Shown here: positions 20,064 to 25,870 of the stretch, one piece after another
Layout of the letters: each line of letters opens with the position of its first letter
Position numbering within the stretch: the stretch's first letter is position 1
NCBI GenBank assembly: GCA_902526165.1
Contig: CABZKA010000008.1
Span: 1-64,000 of the forward strand
DNA from: an uncultured Bacteroidota bacterium
GTDB lineage: Bacteria; Bacteroidota; Bacteroidia; Flavobacteriales; Flavobacteriaceae
Direction of reading: 5' to 3'
DNA length: 64,000 nucleotides
Translations under genes and position numbers: made by a program
Notes under the pieces: model-generated
Seen by the model: only the letters and a program-made list of their open reading frames with translations
What the model was told of the DNA's origin: nothing
Database searches by the model: none

Positions 20064-21965
20064 ATGAGTAAAATAATTGGTATAGATTTAGGTACGACTA
20101 ATTCATGTGTTTCCGTGATGGAGGGAAATGAACCTGTTGTTATTCCTAATGCCGAAGGAAAGCGAACAACGCCATCTGTAATAGGTTTTGTTGATGGAGG
20201 TGAAATTAAGGTAGGGGATCCAGCTAAAAGACAAGCTGTAACCAACCCAACAAAGACCATTTCATCAATCAAAAGATTTATGGGTAGTAAATTTTCTGAG
20301 TCAAAAGAAGATGCAAAAAGATCACCCTACAAAGTTGTCAAGGGTGATAATGATACTGCAAGGGTAGATATTGACGGAAGATTATACACACCTCAAGAGC
20401 TATCTGCAATGATTTTACAAAAAATGAAAAAAACTGCAGAGGATTACCTAGGAACCTCTGTTAACGAGGCTGTGGTTACAGTACCTGCATATTTTAACGA
20501 TGCCCAAAGACAGGCAACCAAAGAGGCAGGGGAAATTTCTGGTCTAAAAGTTCAAAGAATAATTAATGAACCAACCGCTGCGGCGCTTGCTTATGGTTTA
20601 GATAAGTCAGGTAAAGATCAAAAAATTGCAGTTTATGATCTTGGTGGAGGTACGTTTGATATTTCTATTTTAGAACTTGGTGATGGTGTTTTTGAGGTAC
20701 TATCTACAAATGGTGATACAAGGTTAGGTGGTGATGATTTTGATGATGCGATAATACAATGGATGTCGTTTGAATATGAGGAAGAGGAAGGTGTAGATTT
20801 AAGAAAAGACCCTATGGCACTACAGAGGCTCAAAGAGGCTGCTGAAAAAGCCAAAATTGAACTTTCAGCATCTACTCAAACTGAAATTAATCTTCCATAC
20901 ATAACAGCTACAGACTCTGGTCCAAAACACCTTGTTAAAACATTAACAAGAGCAAAATTCGAGCAATTGAGTTCTGATCTAGTTAAAAGGTCAATGGAAC
21001 CCGTAAAAAAAGCTTTAAAAGATGCGTCTTTAAATAAAAGTGATATTGACGAAATAATCCTTGTAGGTGGATCTACTAGAATCCCAGTTATACAAAACGA
21101 GGTTGAAAAGTTTTTTGGAAAAAAACCTTCCAAAGGCGTTAATCCAGATGAGGTTGTTGCAGTTGGTGCTGCAATACAAGGTGGAGTTCTGACGGGAGAT
21201 GTAAAAGATGTTTTACTTCTTGATGTTACTCCACTTTCCTTAGGTATAGAAACTATGGGTGGAGTTATGACAAAACTTATTGAATCTAACACCACTATTC
21301 CTGCAAAAAAATCACAGATTTTTTCTACAGCAGCTGATAACCAGCCGTCCGTTGAGATTCATGTTTTGCAGGGTGATAGAGCTATGGCTACCGATAATAA
21401 AACAATTGGACGATTCCATCTTGACGGCATACCCCCATCACCAAGAGGAACTCCACAGATTGAAGTTACTTTTGATATAGATGCGAATGGGCTTATACAT
21501 GTCACTGCACTTGATAAGGCTACAAATAAATCACAAGACATAAGGATTGAAGCATCTTCAGGCCTTACGGAAGAAGAGATCGAAAAGATGAAACAAGAAG
21601 CAGAGGCAAATGCTGATTCCGATAAAAAATTGAAAGATGATGCGGATACTATCAATAGTGCGGATGCAATGATTTTTCAAACCGAATCCCAGCTAAAGGA
21701 ACATGGTGATAAGCTACCAGATGAAAAAAAGAAGGTAATTGAGGATGCTATAAAATCTCTAAAGAAAGCTCATGAATCCAAAAATGTTGATAAAATAAAG
21801 TCAGAACTTGAAAAGGTCAATGAAGCCTGGAAAAATGCATCTGAGGAATTATACAAATCTCAAGCTGAAAATCAACCTCAAGCAAATCCAAGTGATCAAA
21901 AGAAATCATCTAAAAAAGATGATAATGATGATGTCCAGGATGTAGATTTTGAAGAAGTTAAATAA
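20064..21965 (+). CDS. dnaK: Molecular chaperone DnaK (Hsp70)
   Basis: 633 residues, full-length Hsp70. The ATPase domain begins [46 protein letters not shown] and [13 protein letters not shown] are the standard signatures. The substrate-binding domain starts near residue 390 ([14 protein letters not shown]) and the C-terminus ends in the acidic DVDFEEVK tail. No dnaJ or grpE is adjacent. The upstream sigma-54 promoter sequence suggests induction through RpoN rather than through HrcA/CIRCE or a sigma-32-like factor. Confidence 0.98.
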
Positions 21966-22026: not shown

Positions 22027-23388
22027 ATGAAAAGTGTTATAATATGTGACATGGAGGGTGTCATTGAGACTATAAACCCTGATGGTGTAAAATTATTTGG
22101 TTACACTAAGGAAGAGCTTGTTGGAAAGAAAAGAGTTTCCCTTTTCTCTGCTGGAGAAATAGTAATTCAAAATGTAGGTATGTGGTTATCTAAAGCAAAT
22201 AAAACTGGCCAGTACTCTACGAAAACATATTTCATAAATAAGAATGGAAAAAAGTTCAATGCGCAAATTAAGATAACCCCCACTTTTGCAAATGGTAAAA
22301 ATAATCCTCAGACGGGTTATTGCGGTATTACTGTTCCAATTGAAGAGGAAGTCAATATTCCAATCAAGTTTTCGACAATTTTTATAAAATGGGCTTTTGC
22401 AATAACCAGGGGAGGATTTACAAGCGCATCACTATTTCCGATTTTTGCTGTCGCAGCTTTTTTAGCCGGTACTGGTGATTACCTTTTCAGTCCATTTTCA
22501 TTGGTTTTATGTTCACTTGGAATTGTTTTTTTACACGTTGCATCAAACTTGTTTAATGATTACTATGATGTAAAAGATGGTACAGATGGCGCAAATACTG
22601 AATATTTTAATGCAGGATTGAATTCAACAATGCTCGAAGGTGCACAGCTTTCGGGTGGAAGTAGAGCGGTTGAATTAGGATTAATCACTCACAAAGGAAC
22701 TCTTTCATTGGCAAGAAAAATGTTAATTTTAACTTTATTGGTAGCATCTGGTTTATTGTTTAACAGTTTTTATGTTACCGGTGAGTTTTCAAATGCTCTT
22801 CATGCACTTATTATCGGCTTTTTAGGTGGGTTCTTAGGATATTTTTATACCGCCAGACCACTAAGATTAGTATCTAGAAGAGGTTTGGGTGAGTTAGCTA
22901 TATTTTTGTCATTTGGTCCTTTGATGACATTAGGGGCTTTGTTCGCTATTTCATCATCCACAATTGAACTTTTTTCTGATCTGTTTTACATTGCATTATT
23001 AGTAGGAATCCCACATGGATTATTGACCACTAATATATTGTATATAAACCAATACCCTGATACTGTAAGTGATGCAAAGACAGGTAAAAACCATTTAATT
23101 GTAACCTTTGGAAAGAAAAATGCTCGCTGGGGTTATTTAATAATATTAATTGCAGCTTTTATTTCCTCAATTTTATTAATTCCTTCGCTTGAAATGTTTG
23201 GAGATTTTAATAAAAATATTTTCATAATTGGAAATCTTGTCCTTTTTGCGTATGGGTTTTATGCTTTTATTAATTTATACAAAAATTATGACAAAAGAGA
23301 ACTAATCCACTCCAATCTCAAGACCATATACCTCCAAATTTTTTATGGTTTGTTTATTGTAATCTTCTTTAATCTATTTTTTACATAA
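22027..23388 (+). CDS. PAS domain fused to UbiA-family prenyltransferase
   Basis: 453 residues with an unusual architecture. Residues 1-105 form a PAS domain (VIICDMEGVIETINPDGVKLFGYTKEEL opening, of which INPDGVKLFGYTKEEL is typical, and a closing NGKKFNAQIKITPTF and YCGITVP). From about residue 118 follows an integral-membrane UbiA prenyltransferase with roughly eight or nine helices. Its two Asp-rich motifs are NLFNDYYDVKDGTD and NQYPDTVSDAKTGK, which bind Mg-prenyl diphosphate; the second is MenA-like. The likely reaction is prenylation of an aromatic acceptor, perhaps in quinone synthesis, with the PAS domain giving redox, ligand or light control. The stop overlaps the start of the CPBP protease gene by one base. 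The acceptor is unknown. Confidence 0.85.
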   Translation: MKSVIICDMEGVIETINPDGVKLFGYTKEELVGKKRVSLFSAGEIVIQNVGMWLSKANKTGQYSTKTYFINKNGKKFNAQIKITPTFANGKNNPQTGYCGITVPIEEEVNIPIKFSTIFIKWAFAITRGGFTSASLFPIFAVAAFLAGTGDYLFSPFSLVLCSLGIVFLHVASNLFNDYYDVKDGTDGANTEYFNAGLNSTMLEGAQLSGGSRAVELGLITHKGTLSLARKMLILTLLVASGLLFNSFYVTGEFSNALHALIIGFLGGFLGYFYTARPLRLVSRRGLGELAIFLSFGPLMTLGALFAISSSTIELFSDLFYIALLVGIPHGLLTTNILYINQYPDTVSDAKTGKNHLIVTFGKKNARWGYLIILIAAFISSILLIPSLEMFGDFNKNIFIIGNLVLFAYGFYAFINLYKNYDKRELIHSNLKTIYLQIFYGLFIVIFFNLFFT

Positions 23389-24305
23389 TGTTTATAGAAA
23401 ACGTTAAAAATACACAAAATGAGTGGTGGAGATATCTCTTGGTTGGTCCACTAATAATAATTGTCTTTTGGCAATTTTTAGGTGCTATTCCATTATTAAT
23501 TGGTCTATTCTCCGTTGCAGACTTAGACAAATTACAAACTTTAAACGAATCAAATTTTTTAAGTGCATTTCCGAACTATAACATTGGTTTAGCACTCTTC
23601 TGTATAACCTTTTTAGTAGGTTTGATTGGAATTTTTTTTACTGTTAAGGTTGTTCATAAACAAACAATAAAGTCCTTGACTACATCGAGAGACAAAATTG
23701 ATTTTAAAAGAATATTCAATGGTTTTTTTGTGATATCAACTGTTAATGTGACCGGGATGTTAGTTGCTTATTTGTACGATCCAAGTGTTTATGAGTTTAA
23801 TTTCAAGCCACAATCTTTTGTTTATTTATTTCTAATAGCAATTTTTTTATTACCCTTTCAAACCAGTTTTGAAGAGTATCTTGTAAGAGGTTATTTATTA
23901 CAAGGCATAGGAATTACTACCAAAAGTAGACTTCTTGCACTTTTAATTCCTACTTTATTGTTTGCTTTATTACACCTTGCTAATCCCGAGATTGATAAAA
24001 TGGGTTATGGTTTTCTTGGTGCATACTTTATTATGGGACTTGTATGGGGAATATGTACACTAATGGATGATGGTTTAGAACTCGCCTTGGGTATGCATTT
24101 TGGTAATAATTTTATTGGTATTTTGCTCATGACTGCTGATTGGACTGTTCTTCAAACTGATTCAGTACTTAAATATGTGGGCGAACCAAATATGTCAATC
24201 ATGTTTCTTACATCAATTCCATTACAAATTTTAATTCTTCTTTATTTTTCAAAAAAGTATAATTGGACTAACTGGAGAGAAAAACTGCTGGGGTCATTAA
24301 ATTGA
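23388..24305 (+). CDS. CPBP-family intramembrane metalloprotease
   Basis: 305 residues, about eight membrane segments. The CAAX-protease/bacteriocin-processing (CPBP, Abi) motifs are present: FEEYLVRGYLLQG (motif 1, paired Glu and Arg), LLHLANP (motif 2 His) and MHFGNNFIG (motif 3 His). The eukaryotic relative Rce1 cleaves prenylated proteins, which makes its coupling to a prenyltransferase gene notable. However, CPBP genes are common and many have no known substrate. Translationally coupled to the upstream gene by a one-base overlap. Confidence 0.9.
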   Translation: MFIENVKNTQNEWWRYLLVGPLIIIVFWQFLGAIPLLIGLFSVADLDKLQTLNESNFLSAFPNYNIGLALFCITFLVGLIGIFFTVKVVHKQTIKSLTTSRDKIDFKRIFNGFFVISTVNVTGMLVAYLYDPSVYEFNFKPQSFVYLFLIAIFLLPFQTSFEEYLVRGYLLQGIGITTKSRLLALLIPTLLFALLHLANPEIDKMGYGFLGAYFIMGLVWGICTLMDDGLELALGMHFGNNFIGILLMTADWTVLQTDSVLKYVGEPNMSIMFLTSIPLQILILLYFSKKYNWTNWREKLLGSLN

Positions 24306-24311
24306 ATTATA

Positions 24312-24485
24312 ATGAATAAAAATACCATATTTGCTTGGGGCTCTTTTATATTGACCTTGCTTGGAATAGCACTGATATTATTAGGCGTCTTAAAATATTC
24401 TGAATATGCAATTGGATTCTCTGTTGCTGGAGTTGGATTTATTGCTATTGGTTGGGCTTTTAATGCCCTCAAAGGTAGGATTTAA
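24312..24485 (+). CDS. Small membrane protein, CAL67264-like
   Basis: 57 residues starting at ATG 24312. Two hydrophobic helices (about 5-27 and 32-50) and a short basic tail ending FNALKGRI. This ending and the overall pattern fit the CAL67264 family, a short conserved membrane protein of Flavobacteriia with no known function. It follows the CPBP gene by six bases and overlaps the convergent fumC stop by four. The family call is from memory of the pattern. Confidence 0.75.
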   Translation: MNKNTIFAWGSFILTLLGIALILLGVLKYSEYAIGFSVAGVGFIAIGWAFNALKGRI

Positions 24486-25870
24486 ACCATATTTTCAGGG
24501 TTTACCCAGTCTTTAAATTGTTTTTTAGTAACATAACCTAACTTTACTGCTTCTTCCTCTAGCGAGGTCCCATTTTTGTATGCTTCATTTGCAATTTCGG
24601 CTGCTTTGTAATAACCTATTTTTTTATTGAGTGCTGTTACAAGCATTAGTGAGTTGTTGAGATGTTGCTTGATTTTTACTTTATTTGCCTTTAAACCATT
24701 TAAACAGTTTTTGTTGAAACTTTCCATAGAATCAGATAACAAATTAATGGATTCAATCAATTTATTAGCAATAACAGGCTTGAATGCATTAAGCTCTAAG
24801 TGACCTTGACTTCCTGCAAAACTTACTGTTGTGTCATTTCCAAGAACCTGTGTACAAACCATAGAGACAGCTTCACACTGAGTTGGATTTACTTTTCCAG
24901 GCATAATCGAACTTCCAGGTTCATTAGCAGGTAGAATAAGTTCTGCAAATCCAGATCTTGGACCACTTCCCAAAAGTCTTATATCATTAACGATTTTAAA
25001 AAGAGAGACAGCAATCTGTTTTAGTGCACCATGAGTTTCAACTAAGGCATCTTTTGAAGCAATTGCTTCAAATTTGTTTTCTGCAACTTCGAATTTAATT
25101 TTTGTAAAATTAGAAATATTTTTCACCACACTTTTGTCGAATCCAACAGGCGCATTAAGTCCAGTACCAACTGCAGTTCCACCAATTGCAAGTTGTTTTA
25201 AATGTATGAGAGTATTTTTCAATGCCTTTAATCCAAATTTCATCTGGGCTTCATAACCAGAAAATTCTTGACCCAGGCTAATGGGAGTCGCATCCATCAT
25301 GTGTGTTCTACCAATTTTAATATCACTATTAAATTCTTCTTTTTTTATTTTAAGAATTTTTATAAATGATTCAATTGATGGAATAAATTTTTCATGTAAG
25401 AGCCTAGTTACAGCAATATTTATAACAGTTGGAAATGTATCATTAGATGATTGAGACATGTTTACCTCATCATTAGCTTTTATATATTTTGAATCATAAA
25501 GTGTTTTACCTATTAATAGGTTTGCTCTATTTGAAATTACTTCATTAACATTCATATTGGTTTGTGTTCCAGAGCCTGTTTGCCAAACTACTAACGGAAA
25601 TTCAAGATTATGTTTGTTATTTAAAATTTCATCGCATATTTCTGAAATTAATTTCATTTTTCTTTTATCAAGATTAATTAATTCACTATTTGAGATTGCA
25701 CAACATTTTTTTAAAATTGCATATGAATGAATAATTTCAACAGGCATTGAATATGGCTTACCAATTTTGAAATTATTTATTGACCTTTGAGTTTGTGGCC
25801 CCCAAAGAGCATTTTTATCTATTTTAACTTCACCTAGAGTGTCAGATTCAATTCTAAATTTTTTTTCCAT
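24482..25870 (-). CDS. fumC: Fumarate hydratase, class II
   Basis: 462 residues, standard for FumC, the iron-independent TCA-cycle enzyme converting fumarate to malate. Seen are the N-terminal RIESDTLGEVKI, WQTGSGTQTNMNVNEVI, the catalytic GRTHMMDATPIS region and the superfamily signature GSSIMPGKVNPTQCE near residue 320. A TAnnTTTG box lies immediately upstream, so the mRNA leader must be very short. Monocistronic and convergent with the membrane-protein cluster. Confidence 0.97.
   Translation of the reverse strand: MEKKFRIESDTLGEVKIDKNALWGPQTQRSINNFKIGKPYSMPVEIIHSYAILKKCCAISNSELINLDKRKMKLISEICDEILNNKHNLEFPLVVWQTGSGTQTNMNVNEVISNRANLLIGKTLYDSKYIKANDEVNMSQSSNDTFPTVINIAVTRLLHEKFIPSIESFIKILKIKKEEFNSDIKIGRTHMMDATPISLGQEFSGYEAQMKFGLKALKNTLIHLKQLAIGGTAVGTGLNAPVGFDKSVVKNISNFTKIKFEVAENKFEAIASKDALVETHGALKQIAVSLFKIVNDIRLLGSGPRSGFAELILPANEPGSSIMPGKVNPTQCEAVSMVCTQVLGNDTTVSFAGSQGHLELNAFKPVIANKLIESINLLSDSMESFNKNCLNGLKANKVKIKQHLNNSLMLVTALNKKIGYYKAAEIANEAYKNGTSLEEEAVKLGYVTKKQFKDWVNPENMV

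Follow-up and report, generated by a model that had tools for sequence, protein, structure and literature searches.

The 64,000-nucleotide stretch of DNA considered here, referred to throughout as the window, lies at positions 1 to 64,000 on the forward strand of contig CABZKA010000008.1 (assembly GCA_902526165.1) from an uncultured member of the Flavobacteriaceae, and it carries a gene in which an N-terminal PAS domain is joined to a UbiA prenyltransferase (PAS-UbiA). The fusion is real, it is conserved and it is under constraint. Its function can be proposed with moderate confidence: from its sequence and setting PAS-UbiA would be a MenA-like, PAS-gated prenyltransferase that adds the tail to a naphthoquinone-type ring, with the ring itself being salvaged, at a locus that is the remnant of a menaquinone (men) operon. 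Whilst the genomes of the genus and 50 further genomes with PAS-UbiA show neither a Men nor a Mqn marker, the window's genome keeps quinone-dependent respiration, and the analysis suggests that many small-genome, apparently marine Bacteroidota finish their quinones from a ring that is either taken up or made in some unrecognised way. If true, the prenylation of quinones would be gated by a built-in sensor, and the surface ocean would conceal a dependence akin to one on vitamin K. The supply of quinones in the ocean becomes a testable question, comparable to the known exchange of other vitamins.

The original prediction described a single reading frame that holds a PAS domain (residues 1-105) and a complete UbiA enzyme with both Asp-rich motifs, a description with which the profile matches, the motif residues (constant in 46 of 46 aligned sequences) and the structure model all agree. 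Of the other 22 genomes of the genus, 21 have a whole-length homologue, the sole exception being G010, a genome that is 56% complete and gave no match. When 84,980 species were scanned, each by a single genome, 153 relatives of PAS-UbiA were confirmed, the best 80 of which are called the named loci, and in all 80 the alignment begins at query residue 1-3, thus the PAS part is present in each and the fusion is not the product of an assembly error. The 21 genomes of the genus rule out such an error as well, and no truly split pair of PAS and UbiA genes, which would have pointed to one, was found among the relatives. What look like split genes in two genomes are really an in-frame TGA (G167) and a frameshift (G144), both within the UbiA part. 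Copies of PAS-UbiA broken in these two ways lie at L275:4969-6258 (in-frame TGA) and L279:9274-10625 (frameshift), and are either sequence errors or pseudogenes.

The named loci come mostly from single-cell genomes and metagenome bins that are labelled as Bacteroidetes, Cryomorphaceae, Flavobacteriaceae, Flavobacteriales, Flammeovirgaceae or Marinoscillum, and from the labels of the records the genomes with PAS-UbiA are apparently marine. Bacteroidota were the aim of the searches, and only two loci among the best 80 of the 153 carry another label, these being L099 (a Methanomethylicia archaeon) and L141 (Gammaproteobacteria). Both have the same neighbours as the copies in Bacteroidota and their contigs are probably mis-binned.

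The first part of the protein is matched by the PAS models PF13426 (E 1.2e-8, residues 3-92, 35.6 bits against a cut-off of 27) and TIGR00229 (E 1.2e-9, residues 1-124, 38.4 bits against a cut-off of 22.9). An AlphaFold model of the full protein, built on an alignment of 46 sequences, has a mean predicted local distance difference test (pLDDT) score of 85.4 and a predicted template modelling (pTM) score of 0.82, and it contains the PAS fold, the absence of which would have spoken against the fusion, as a PAS-like order of strands and helices that is followed by a helical bundle. The PAS part folded alone and without an alignment gave a pLDDT of 40.5 and an unusable model. The first 108 residues of the full-length model superpose on known PAS structures, with 3lyx_A the closest of those noted (Z 15.7, root mean square deviation (rmsd) 1.5, 105 residues aligned), and further matches to Aer (8dik_B, Z 14.4) and NifL (2gj3_B, Z 13.7).

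Two cysteines of the PAS domain, Cys7 and Cys99, are near-invariant. The alignment of 46 sequences was chosen with a start pattern that demands a Cys-Asp pair and is therefore blind to the loss of Cys7, and an unselected check was added to it. In this check, made on overlapping sets, Cys7 is present wherever it is aligned (all 23 loci of the genus, all 80 named loci and all 25 loci from a sample of the order), and Cys99 is present in 22 of 23 and 79 of 80, the odd one in each case being an ambiguous base in the same gene, and in 25 of 26 loci of the order sample. The domain as a whole is at least as well kept as the enzyme by several measures. Compared with the copy from another family in G029, the PAS part is 71% identical and the UbiA part 54%, the commonest residue at a position has an average share of 0.77 in PAS and 0.66 in UbiA across the 46 sequences, and seven of eight pairwise comparisons show PAS as the better conserved part, three of the seven narrowly. 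The nonsynonymous rate (dN) of the PAS part is 0.03-0.17 in seven comparisons, far below a synonymous rate (dS) for which the differences are large or saturated. When read by eye for known motifs, without a tool search, no signature of haem binding or of light-oxygen-voltage (LOV) photochemistry was recognised in the domain.

The enzyme part matches PF01040 over residues 137-424 (E 1.2e-20, 74.3 bits against a cut-off of 34.2), and in addition to the residues of the two Asp-rich motifs N341 is also constant in all 46 of the aligned relatives. Residues 115-453 of the model superpose on UbiA enzymes, namely that of A. pernix (4od5_A, Z 23.7) and UBIAD1 (8djk_B, Z 23.2, rmsd 3.1, 273 residues aligned), and amongst solved structures UBIAD1 is also the best match by sequence (2.8e-11). 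A tree of 48 rows, for which the program warns of long branches, puts PAS-UbiA in one clade (support 98/97) next to MenA, with PAS-UbiA and MenA joined at 100/99 and so split from CyoE, the UbiA of E. coli and two other UbiA-like proteins (100/99), one of which belongs to a genome that has MqnA/D and is matched by UbiA-like and MqnP models. By this tree the UbiA domain of PAS-UbiA is placed as the sister clade of MenA. It was also considered that PAS-UbiA is the native flavobacterial menA with an acquired PAS domain, which is unsupported, PAS-UbiA being a separate clade.

The setting of the gene also points to menaquinone. The next gene in the window encodes a CPBP intramembrane protease, a relative of which (E 1e-20 or better) is found in 96 of the family's 100 genomes, the window's own included, and at the 29 best other CPBP loci of the family MenC adjoins it in 26 and MenE in 25, with or without PAS-UbiA. 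The three loci that lack MenC are L312, in which MenE and PccB are kept, L311, and L332, which carries PAS-UbiA. An ordinary operon, that of G027, has the order MenI-MenF-MenD-MenB-MenA-MenC-..-MenE-..-PccB(-), where MenB and MenA were named by family searches and the rest, which also served as queries, by sequence. The intact operon of G023, from the window's family, has the order MenI-MenF-MenD-..-MenA-..-MenC-CPBP-MenE-PccB(-), and its CPBP is 44% identical to that of the window. Two further loci, L148 and L149, have the order MenI-PAS-UbiA-CPBP-MenE-PccB(-), which reads as a men operon minus its middle with PAS-UbiA standing there instead, and in the window only PAS-UbiA and the CPBP gene are left of the operon, between dnaK and fumC. 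As the CPBP gene stands beside menC and menE across the family, the window holds an eroded menaquinone operon, a remnant in which PAS-UbiA lies where menF, menD, menA and menC once stood. Some of the genes that stay behind also appear to be degrading, the MenE-like proteins of L145 (8257-9099, which reaches the end of the locus) and L149 (8257-9342) being without the TSGS stretch that L148 retains, which fits an apparently decaying gene.

To our knowledge the menaquinone routes generally known in Bacteroidota are two, Men and Mqn, and in the surveys menB and MqnA/D were used as markers for them. menB over its cut-off is found in none of the 23 genomes of the genus, the window's included, and in none of 50 genomes of named loci, and MqnA/D is likewise found in none of the 23 and none of the 50. 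Amongst 17 genomes from outside the genus that were surveyed alongside, menB is present in 12 and MqnA/D in four, and the one with neither, G029, is also the one that carries PAS-UbiA. At E 1e-3, 37 genomes out of 40 and 48 out of 50 give matches to menB that stay below the threshold, these being crotonase relatives under the cut-off of 342.7 bits, with the best among the 50 at 152.3 bits. The 50 genomes of named loci overlap slightly with the sample of the order, some genomes (e.g. G089 and G094, with identical coordinates) being in both.

Across the 395 genomes of that sample, PAS-UbiA is found in 27, menB in 286 and MqnA/D in 64. Not one of the 27 genomes with PAS-UbiA has menB, set against 286 of 395 overall (Fisher 6e-17, uncorrected for kinship). 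In this sample the families with menB are not those with MqnA/D, which leaves 45 genomes with neither, and PAS-UbiA is present in 18 of these 45 against nine of the 350 others (Fisher 7e-13, again uncorrected for kinship). A separate 27 of the 395 lack all three (menB, MqnA/D and PAS-UbiA) at the chosen thresholds, though some of these genomes are incomplete.

At E 1e-8 the number of UbiA proteins in 22 genomes of named loci is two in 14, three in seven and one in one. All 19 of the other UbiA loci examined in the genus are relatives of CyoE, with 71-100% identity to the CyoE of the window's genome, which is itself over the CyoE cut-off. G018 is the sole genome of the genus with one further UbiA (C40:4714-5379, a frame of 310 amino acids, 66.6 bits), which is either contamination or an extra enzyme.

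The window's genome (1.22 Mb) was searched by tblastn with Men, Ubi and Nuo queries. The search found no MenD, MenB, MenE, MenH or MenI in it, no UbiA, UbiB, UbiC or UbiD of the ubiquinone route with queries from E. coli, and nothing for complex I with nine E. coli Nuo queries. Two weak matches to MenF are fitted best by TrpE and PabB models, mostly below equivalog cut-offs, and a partial match to MenC is fitted best by a model of a sugar-acid dehydratase, thus neither is taken as a Men gene. What the genome does have are users of quinone: NqrA, NqrB, NqrD, NqrE and NqrF of the Na+-translocating NADH:quinone reductase (Na+-NQR) are over curated cut-offs, as is NqrC by TIGR01938, with a full nqrA-F run at C3:23894-29748, and SdhA and SdhB of succinate dehydrogenase are over theirs. 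UbiE is over two cut-offs and is 53% identical to the UbiE that adjoins PAS-UbiA in L093, and two relatives of polyprenyl diphosphate synthases match several such models below equivalog cut-offs. By its genes the cell has users of a quinone, a probable donor of the tail, an enzyme to attach that tail and a methylase, with no visible ring pathway. Two other quinones were considered. Methyl-plastoquinone (PMC12324825) was set aside as UbiE reaches 173.5 bits in the window's genome and 182.9 bits in L093 against the cut-off of 335 bits for the MpqE model. For the homogentisate route, two motif patterns of 4-hydroxyphenylpyruvate dioxygenase had no match in the window's genome, a weak negative.

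The pathway that may be pieced together from these genes begins with a ring, either 1,4-dihydroxy-2-naphthoate (DHNA) or the naphthoquinone ring of another organism, that would be taken up or would come from an unrecognised route. To this ring PAS-UbiA would transfer a polyprenyl tail, as its family, motifs and locus predict, UbiE, the gene for which is present, would methylate it and the finished quinone would be used by Na+-NQR and succinate dehydrogenase, the genes for which are also present. In UbiA enzymes the active site faces the cytoplasm and the N-terminus is inside, hence the PAS domain would sit on the catalytic side. Gating of prenylation by the fused PAS domain, in response to redox state or a ligand, is plausible from the sequence, and feedback could run through Cys7 and Cys99 or through a ligand, with ArcB as the model for such a switch. 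A PAS domain fused to the tail-adding enzyme would control the level of quinone by allostery and not by gene expression. As for how the locus arose, the ring-forming genes menF, menD, menB and menC together with the old menA would have been lost, with the CPBP gene of the operon staying beside PAS-UbiA, and PAS-UbiA may have been an accessory or salvage enzyme at first that became the sole one after ring synthesis was lost. A wider proposal, which we put forward tentatively and as the less probable part of the account, is that much of the small-genome marine Bacteroidota has given up making the ring of its respiratory quinone and lives on the rings of its neighbours (e.g. DHNA or the phylloquinone of phytoplankton), or on a third route, with the quinone finished by a PAS-UbiA in which a switch of two cysteines reads the state of the quinone pool.

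Table 1. Position in the window, strand and basis of the PAS-UbiA gene, its parts and the genes around it.
Feature	Position	Strand	Basis or remark
PAS-UbiA fusion gene, 453 amino acids (aa), putative MenA-like prenyltransferase with N-terminal PAS	22027..23388	+	open reading frame, profiles, homologues, tree, model
PAS domain, residues 1-104	22027..22338	+	PF13426, TIGR00229, AlphaFold fold
Cys7 of PAS	22045..22047	+	46/46 in alignment; unselected check
Cys99, sole other PAS cysteine	22321..22323	+	46/46 in alignment; unselected check
UbiA prenyltransferase domain, about residues 115-453	22369..23385	+	PF01040, helical bundle, structural match to UBIAD1
First Asp-rich motif, residues 177-187	22555..22587	+	N177, D178, D181, D187 in 46/46
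Second Asp-rich motif, DxxxD type, residues 345-354	23059..23088	+	D345, D349, K354 in 46/46
CPBP intramembrane protease gene, 305 aa	23388..24305	+	PF02517; relative of the CPBP between menC and menE in the family
EExxxR motif of CPBP	23871..23888	+	read from sequence
CAL67264 family membrane protein, 57 aa	24312..24485	+	NF040514; a neighbour, quinone role not implied
dnaK, upstream boundary	20064..21965	+	named by sequence; DnaK within the flank of 58/80 named loci
fumC, downstream boundary	24482..25870	-	named by sequence; within the flank of 54/80 named loci

The other neighbours of PAS-UbiA are more varied. These were named from one scanned representative of each cluster, or by sequence, with upstream frames of at least 70 aa considered. 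Directly upstream, 43 of 79 named loci have a MenI-like thioesterase, 13 have DnaK and three have UbiE, and the representative of the thioesterase matches the EntH model at 2e-33 and the MenI model at 2e-26, below the curated cut-offs of both. At 20 further loci, mostly of the families f6 and f11, the neighbours include a pterin-4a-carbinolamine dehydratase in six, a short-chain dehydrogenase in six and a photolyase-related protein (PF04244) in five. Loci of f11 and f15 that lie near genes of the photolyase type, flavin reductase, pterin dehydratase, short-chain dehydrogenase or MerR-B12 are L271, L272, L276, L277, L278, L279, L281 and L286.

A number of observations weigh against the salvage of a quinone ring by a MenA-like, sensor-gated enzyme, or narrow it. 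The protein misses the equivalog cut-offs of MenA, with 62.4 bits against 102.15 for TIGR00751 and 78.4 against 264 for NF004751, and it is for this reason that it is named MenA-like and not MenA. In the genomes of f11 and f15 PAS-UbiA lies away from the men locus, a type III pantothenate kinase stands upstream of it at 12 of the 79 named loci, and the same 20 loci mostly of f6 and f11 have a flavin reductase in five, a protein with the FAD domain of photolyases (PF03441) in four and a MerR-B12 regulator in three. A collapsed operon without PAS-UbiA also exists, this being L311:1-3906 (G469) with the order DnaK-MenI-CPBP-CAL67264-FumC. The MenI-like thioesterase, where it is retained, fits a pure salvage of the ring poorly. 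In the surveys menB and MqnA/D stand for whole pathways, the other Men genes having been examined in the window's genome alone, many of the surveyed genomes are incomplete and that of the window is 73% complete. MqnA/D is present in nine of the 27 genomes with PAS-UbiA in the order sample, by which a strict rule that PAS-UbiA means no known menaquinone route is rejected, only the exclusion of menB being complete within the genomes searched, and several of these nine hold extra UbiA genes that are, judged by size, MqnP-sized, thus in some genomes PAS-UbiA would share the prenylation of quinones with another enzyme. On the side of the sensor, Cys99 is an Ile in G180 (L252 / L282:4453-5733), for which reason the full invariance of both cysteines was dropped, the identity of PAS falls below that of UbiA in one of the eight comparisons (L022), and the dN of PAS exceeds that of UbiA in three of the seven (L079, L082 and L088).

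Two rival readings assume another origin of the ring or another use of the product. The ring may be made along a third, unrecognised route by way of an aryl-CoA ester, with the MenI-like thioesterase cleaving this ester ahead of the attachment of the tail by PAS-UbiA. The hotdog thioesterase directly upstream at 43 of 79 named loci, with its EntH and MenI matches, and the MenE-like ligase that is kept nearby in L145, L148 and L149 are what such a route would call for, but the thioesterase is below curated cut-offs, is not found in the window's genome and does not appear in the flanks of 16 amongst the 26 closest loci, two of the three ligases (L145 and L149) are without the TSGS stretch, and no ring-forming candidate was recognised beside the locus, no genome-wide search for one having been made, so that we regard this route as unlikely. 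It is also improbable in our view that PAS-UbiA makes a non-respiratory prenylated compound, such as a photoprotective or antioxidant quinol, under light or oxidative stress, its place at the men locus being incidental. The neighbourhoods of the f6 and f11 type resemble light-response islands, and this likeness is the main support for a role in stress, the copies of f11 and f15 lying near PF04244, PF03441, flavin reductase, pterin-4a-carbinolamine dehydratase and MerR-B12, to which the nine of 27 genomes that have MqnA/D alongside PAS-UbiA may be added. Set against it are the finding that, of the 22 genomes of the genus with PAS-UbiA, 21 show no other UbiA besides CyoE, the Na+-NQR and succinate dehydrogenase of the window's genome, and the UbiE or MenI-like gene directly upstream at three and 43 of the 79 named loci.

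The original prediction had also suggested a system of three genes, in which PAS-UbiA works with the CPBP protease and a small membrane protein and the protease processes prenylated proteins in the manner of Rce1. Its reading of the frames is confirmed, in that the last base of the PAS-UbiA stop codon is also part of the CPBP start codon (22027-23388 / 23388-24305) and the 57-residue membrane protein follows. The families are also clear, CPBP matching PF02517 (E 1.7e-14, 54.3 bits against a cut-off of 22.4) and the small protein NF040514 (E 2e-18, 66.4 bits against a cut-off of 50). The order of the three genes is conserved in part: CPBP lies directly downstream of PAS-UbiA at 60 of the 80 named loci, with an intact EE followed by R after two or three residues in all 58 CPBP neighbours of more than 200 aa, but the other 20 loci have different neighbours downstream and the 57-aa gene is present at only 36 of the 80. 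The synteny ties CPBP to the men operon irrespective of PAS-UbiA (96 of 100 genomes, with MenC in 26 and MenE in 25 of the 29 loci), L311 pairs CPBP with the small protein where PAS-UbiA is missing, and the enzyme clusters with MenA in the tree, hence the part in which CPBP acts on prenylated proteins is unsupported and a system of this sort is extremely improbable. That the PAS domain is vestigial or structural and senses nothing, the enzyme being a MenA homologue with an N-terminal extension, is very unlikely too. No cofactor-binding signature is established for the domain and the haem and LOV motifs were not recognised by eye, which would suit an inert domain, yet it is conserved as much as the enzyme or more, its dN is far below dS and it is present in all 80 named loci. 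The preferred account thus stays that of a MenA-like prenyltransferase gated by its PAS domain that finishes a salvaged ring.

Amongst openly licensed papers none was found that combines a PAS domain, UbiA, prenyltransferase and fusion, and a search of the titles and abstract openings of such papers found nothing on quinone loss or PAS-UbiA in these groups, a weak negative. The comparison with known systems is therefore one of parts. MenA (TIGR00751) of Flavobacteriales and E. coli shares with PAS-UbiA the UbiA fold and the layout of the Asp-rich motifs, the two are sister clades and in the window's family PAS-UbiA is at the men locus, whereas PAS-UbiA differs in having a PAS domain, a score below the cut-off and about 27% identity to the MenA of G027, and in being found only in genomes that lack menB. 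The CPBP (PF02517) of flavobacterial men operons is like that of the window in sequence and place, but the window's CPBP survives without menC and menE.

Closer in some respects is UBIAD1, the animal menaquinone-4 (MK-4) synthase. UBIAD1 puts a new prenyl tail on a salvaged naphthoquinone ring, and it is regulated together with HMG-CoA reductase, a complex that is named in the title of the structure 8djk. It is the top solved relative of PAS-UbiA by sequence and among the best structural matches, and unlike PAS-UbiA it has no PAS domain. Salvage by bacteria is also on record, as excerpts of PMC6030563 describe a lone menA in Streptococcus agalactiae with which demethylmenaquinone-10 (DMK-10) is made from DHNA or MK-4. 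Here too the prenyltransferase is kept and the ring-forming genes are absent, a likeness that the nine of 27 genomes with MqnA/D in the order sample do not fit, and the two differ in that S. agalactiae is host-associated, with no sensor domain mentioned in those excerpts, whilst the host of PAS-UbiA is apparently marine and has Na+-NQR.

For the sensor the nearest models are Aer, NifL and ArcB. In E. coli ArcB, according to excerpts of PMC11620690, two cysteines of the PAS domain have quinones as their direct oxidants or reductants. PAS-UbiA is like these sensors in its PAS fold, as judged from the Z scores for Aer and NifL, and like ArcB in having two PAS cysteines. The PAS domains of Aer, NifL and ArcB drive kinases, chemoreceptors or regulators, whereas that of PAS-UbiA would act on a membrane enzyme of biosynthesis.

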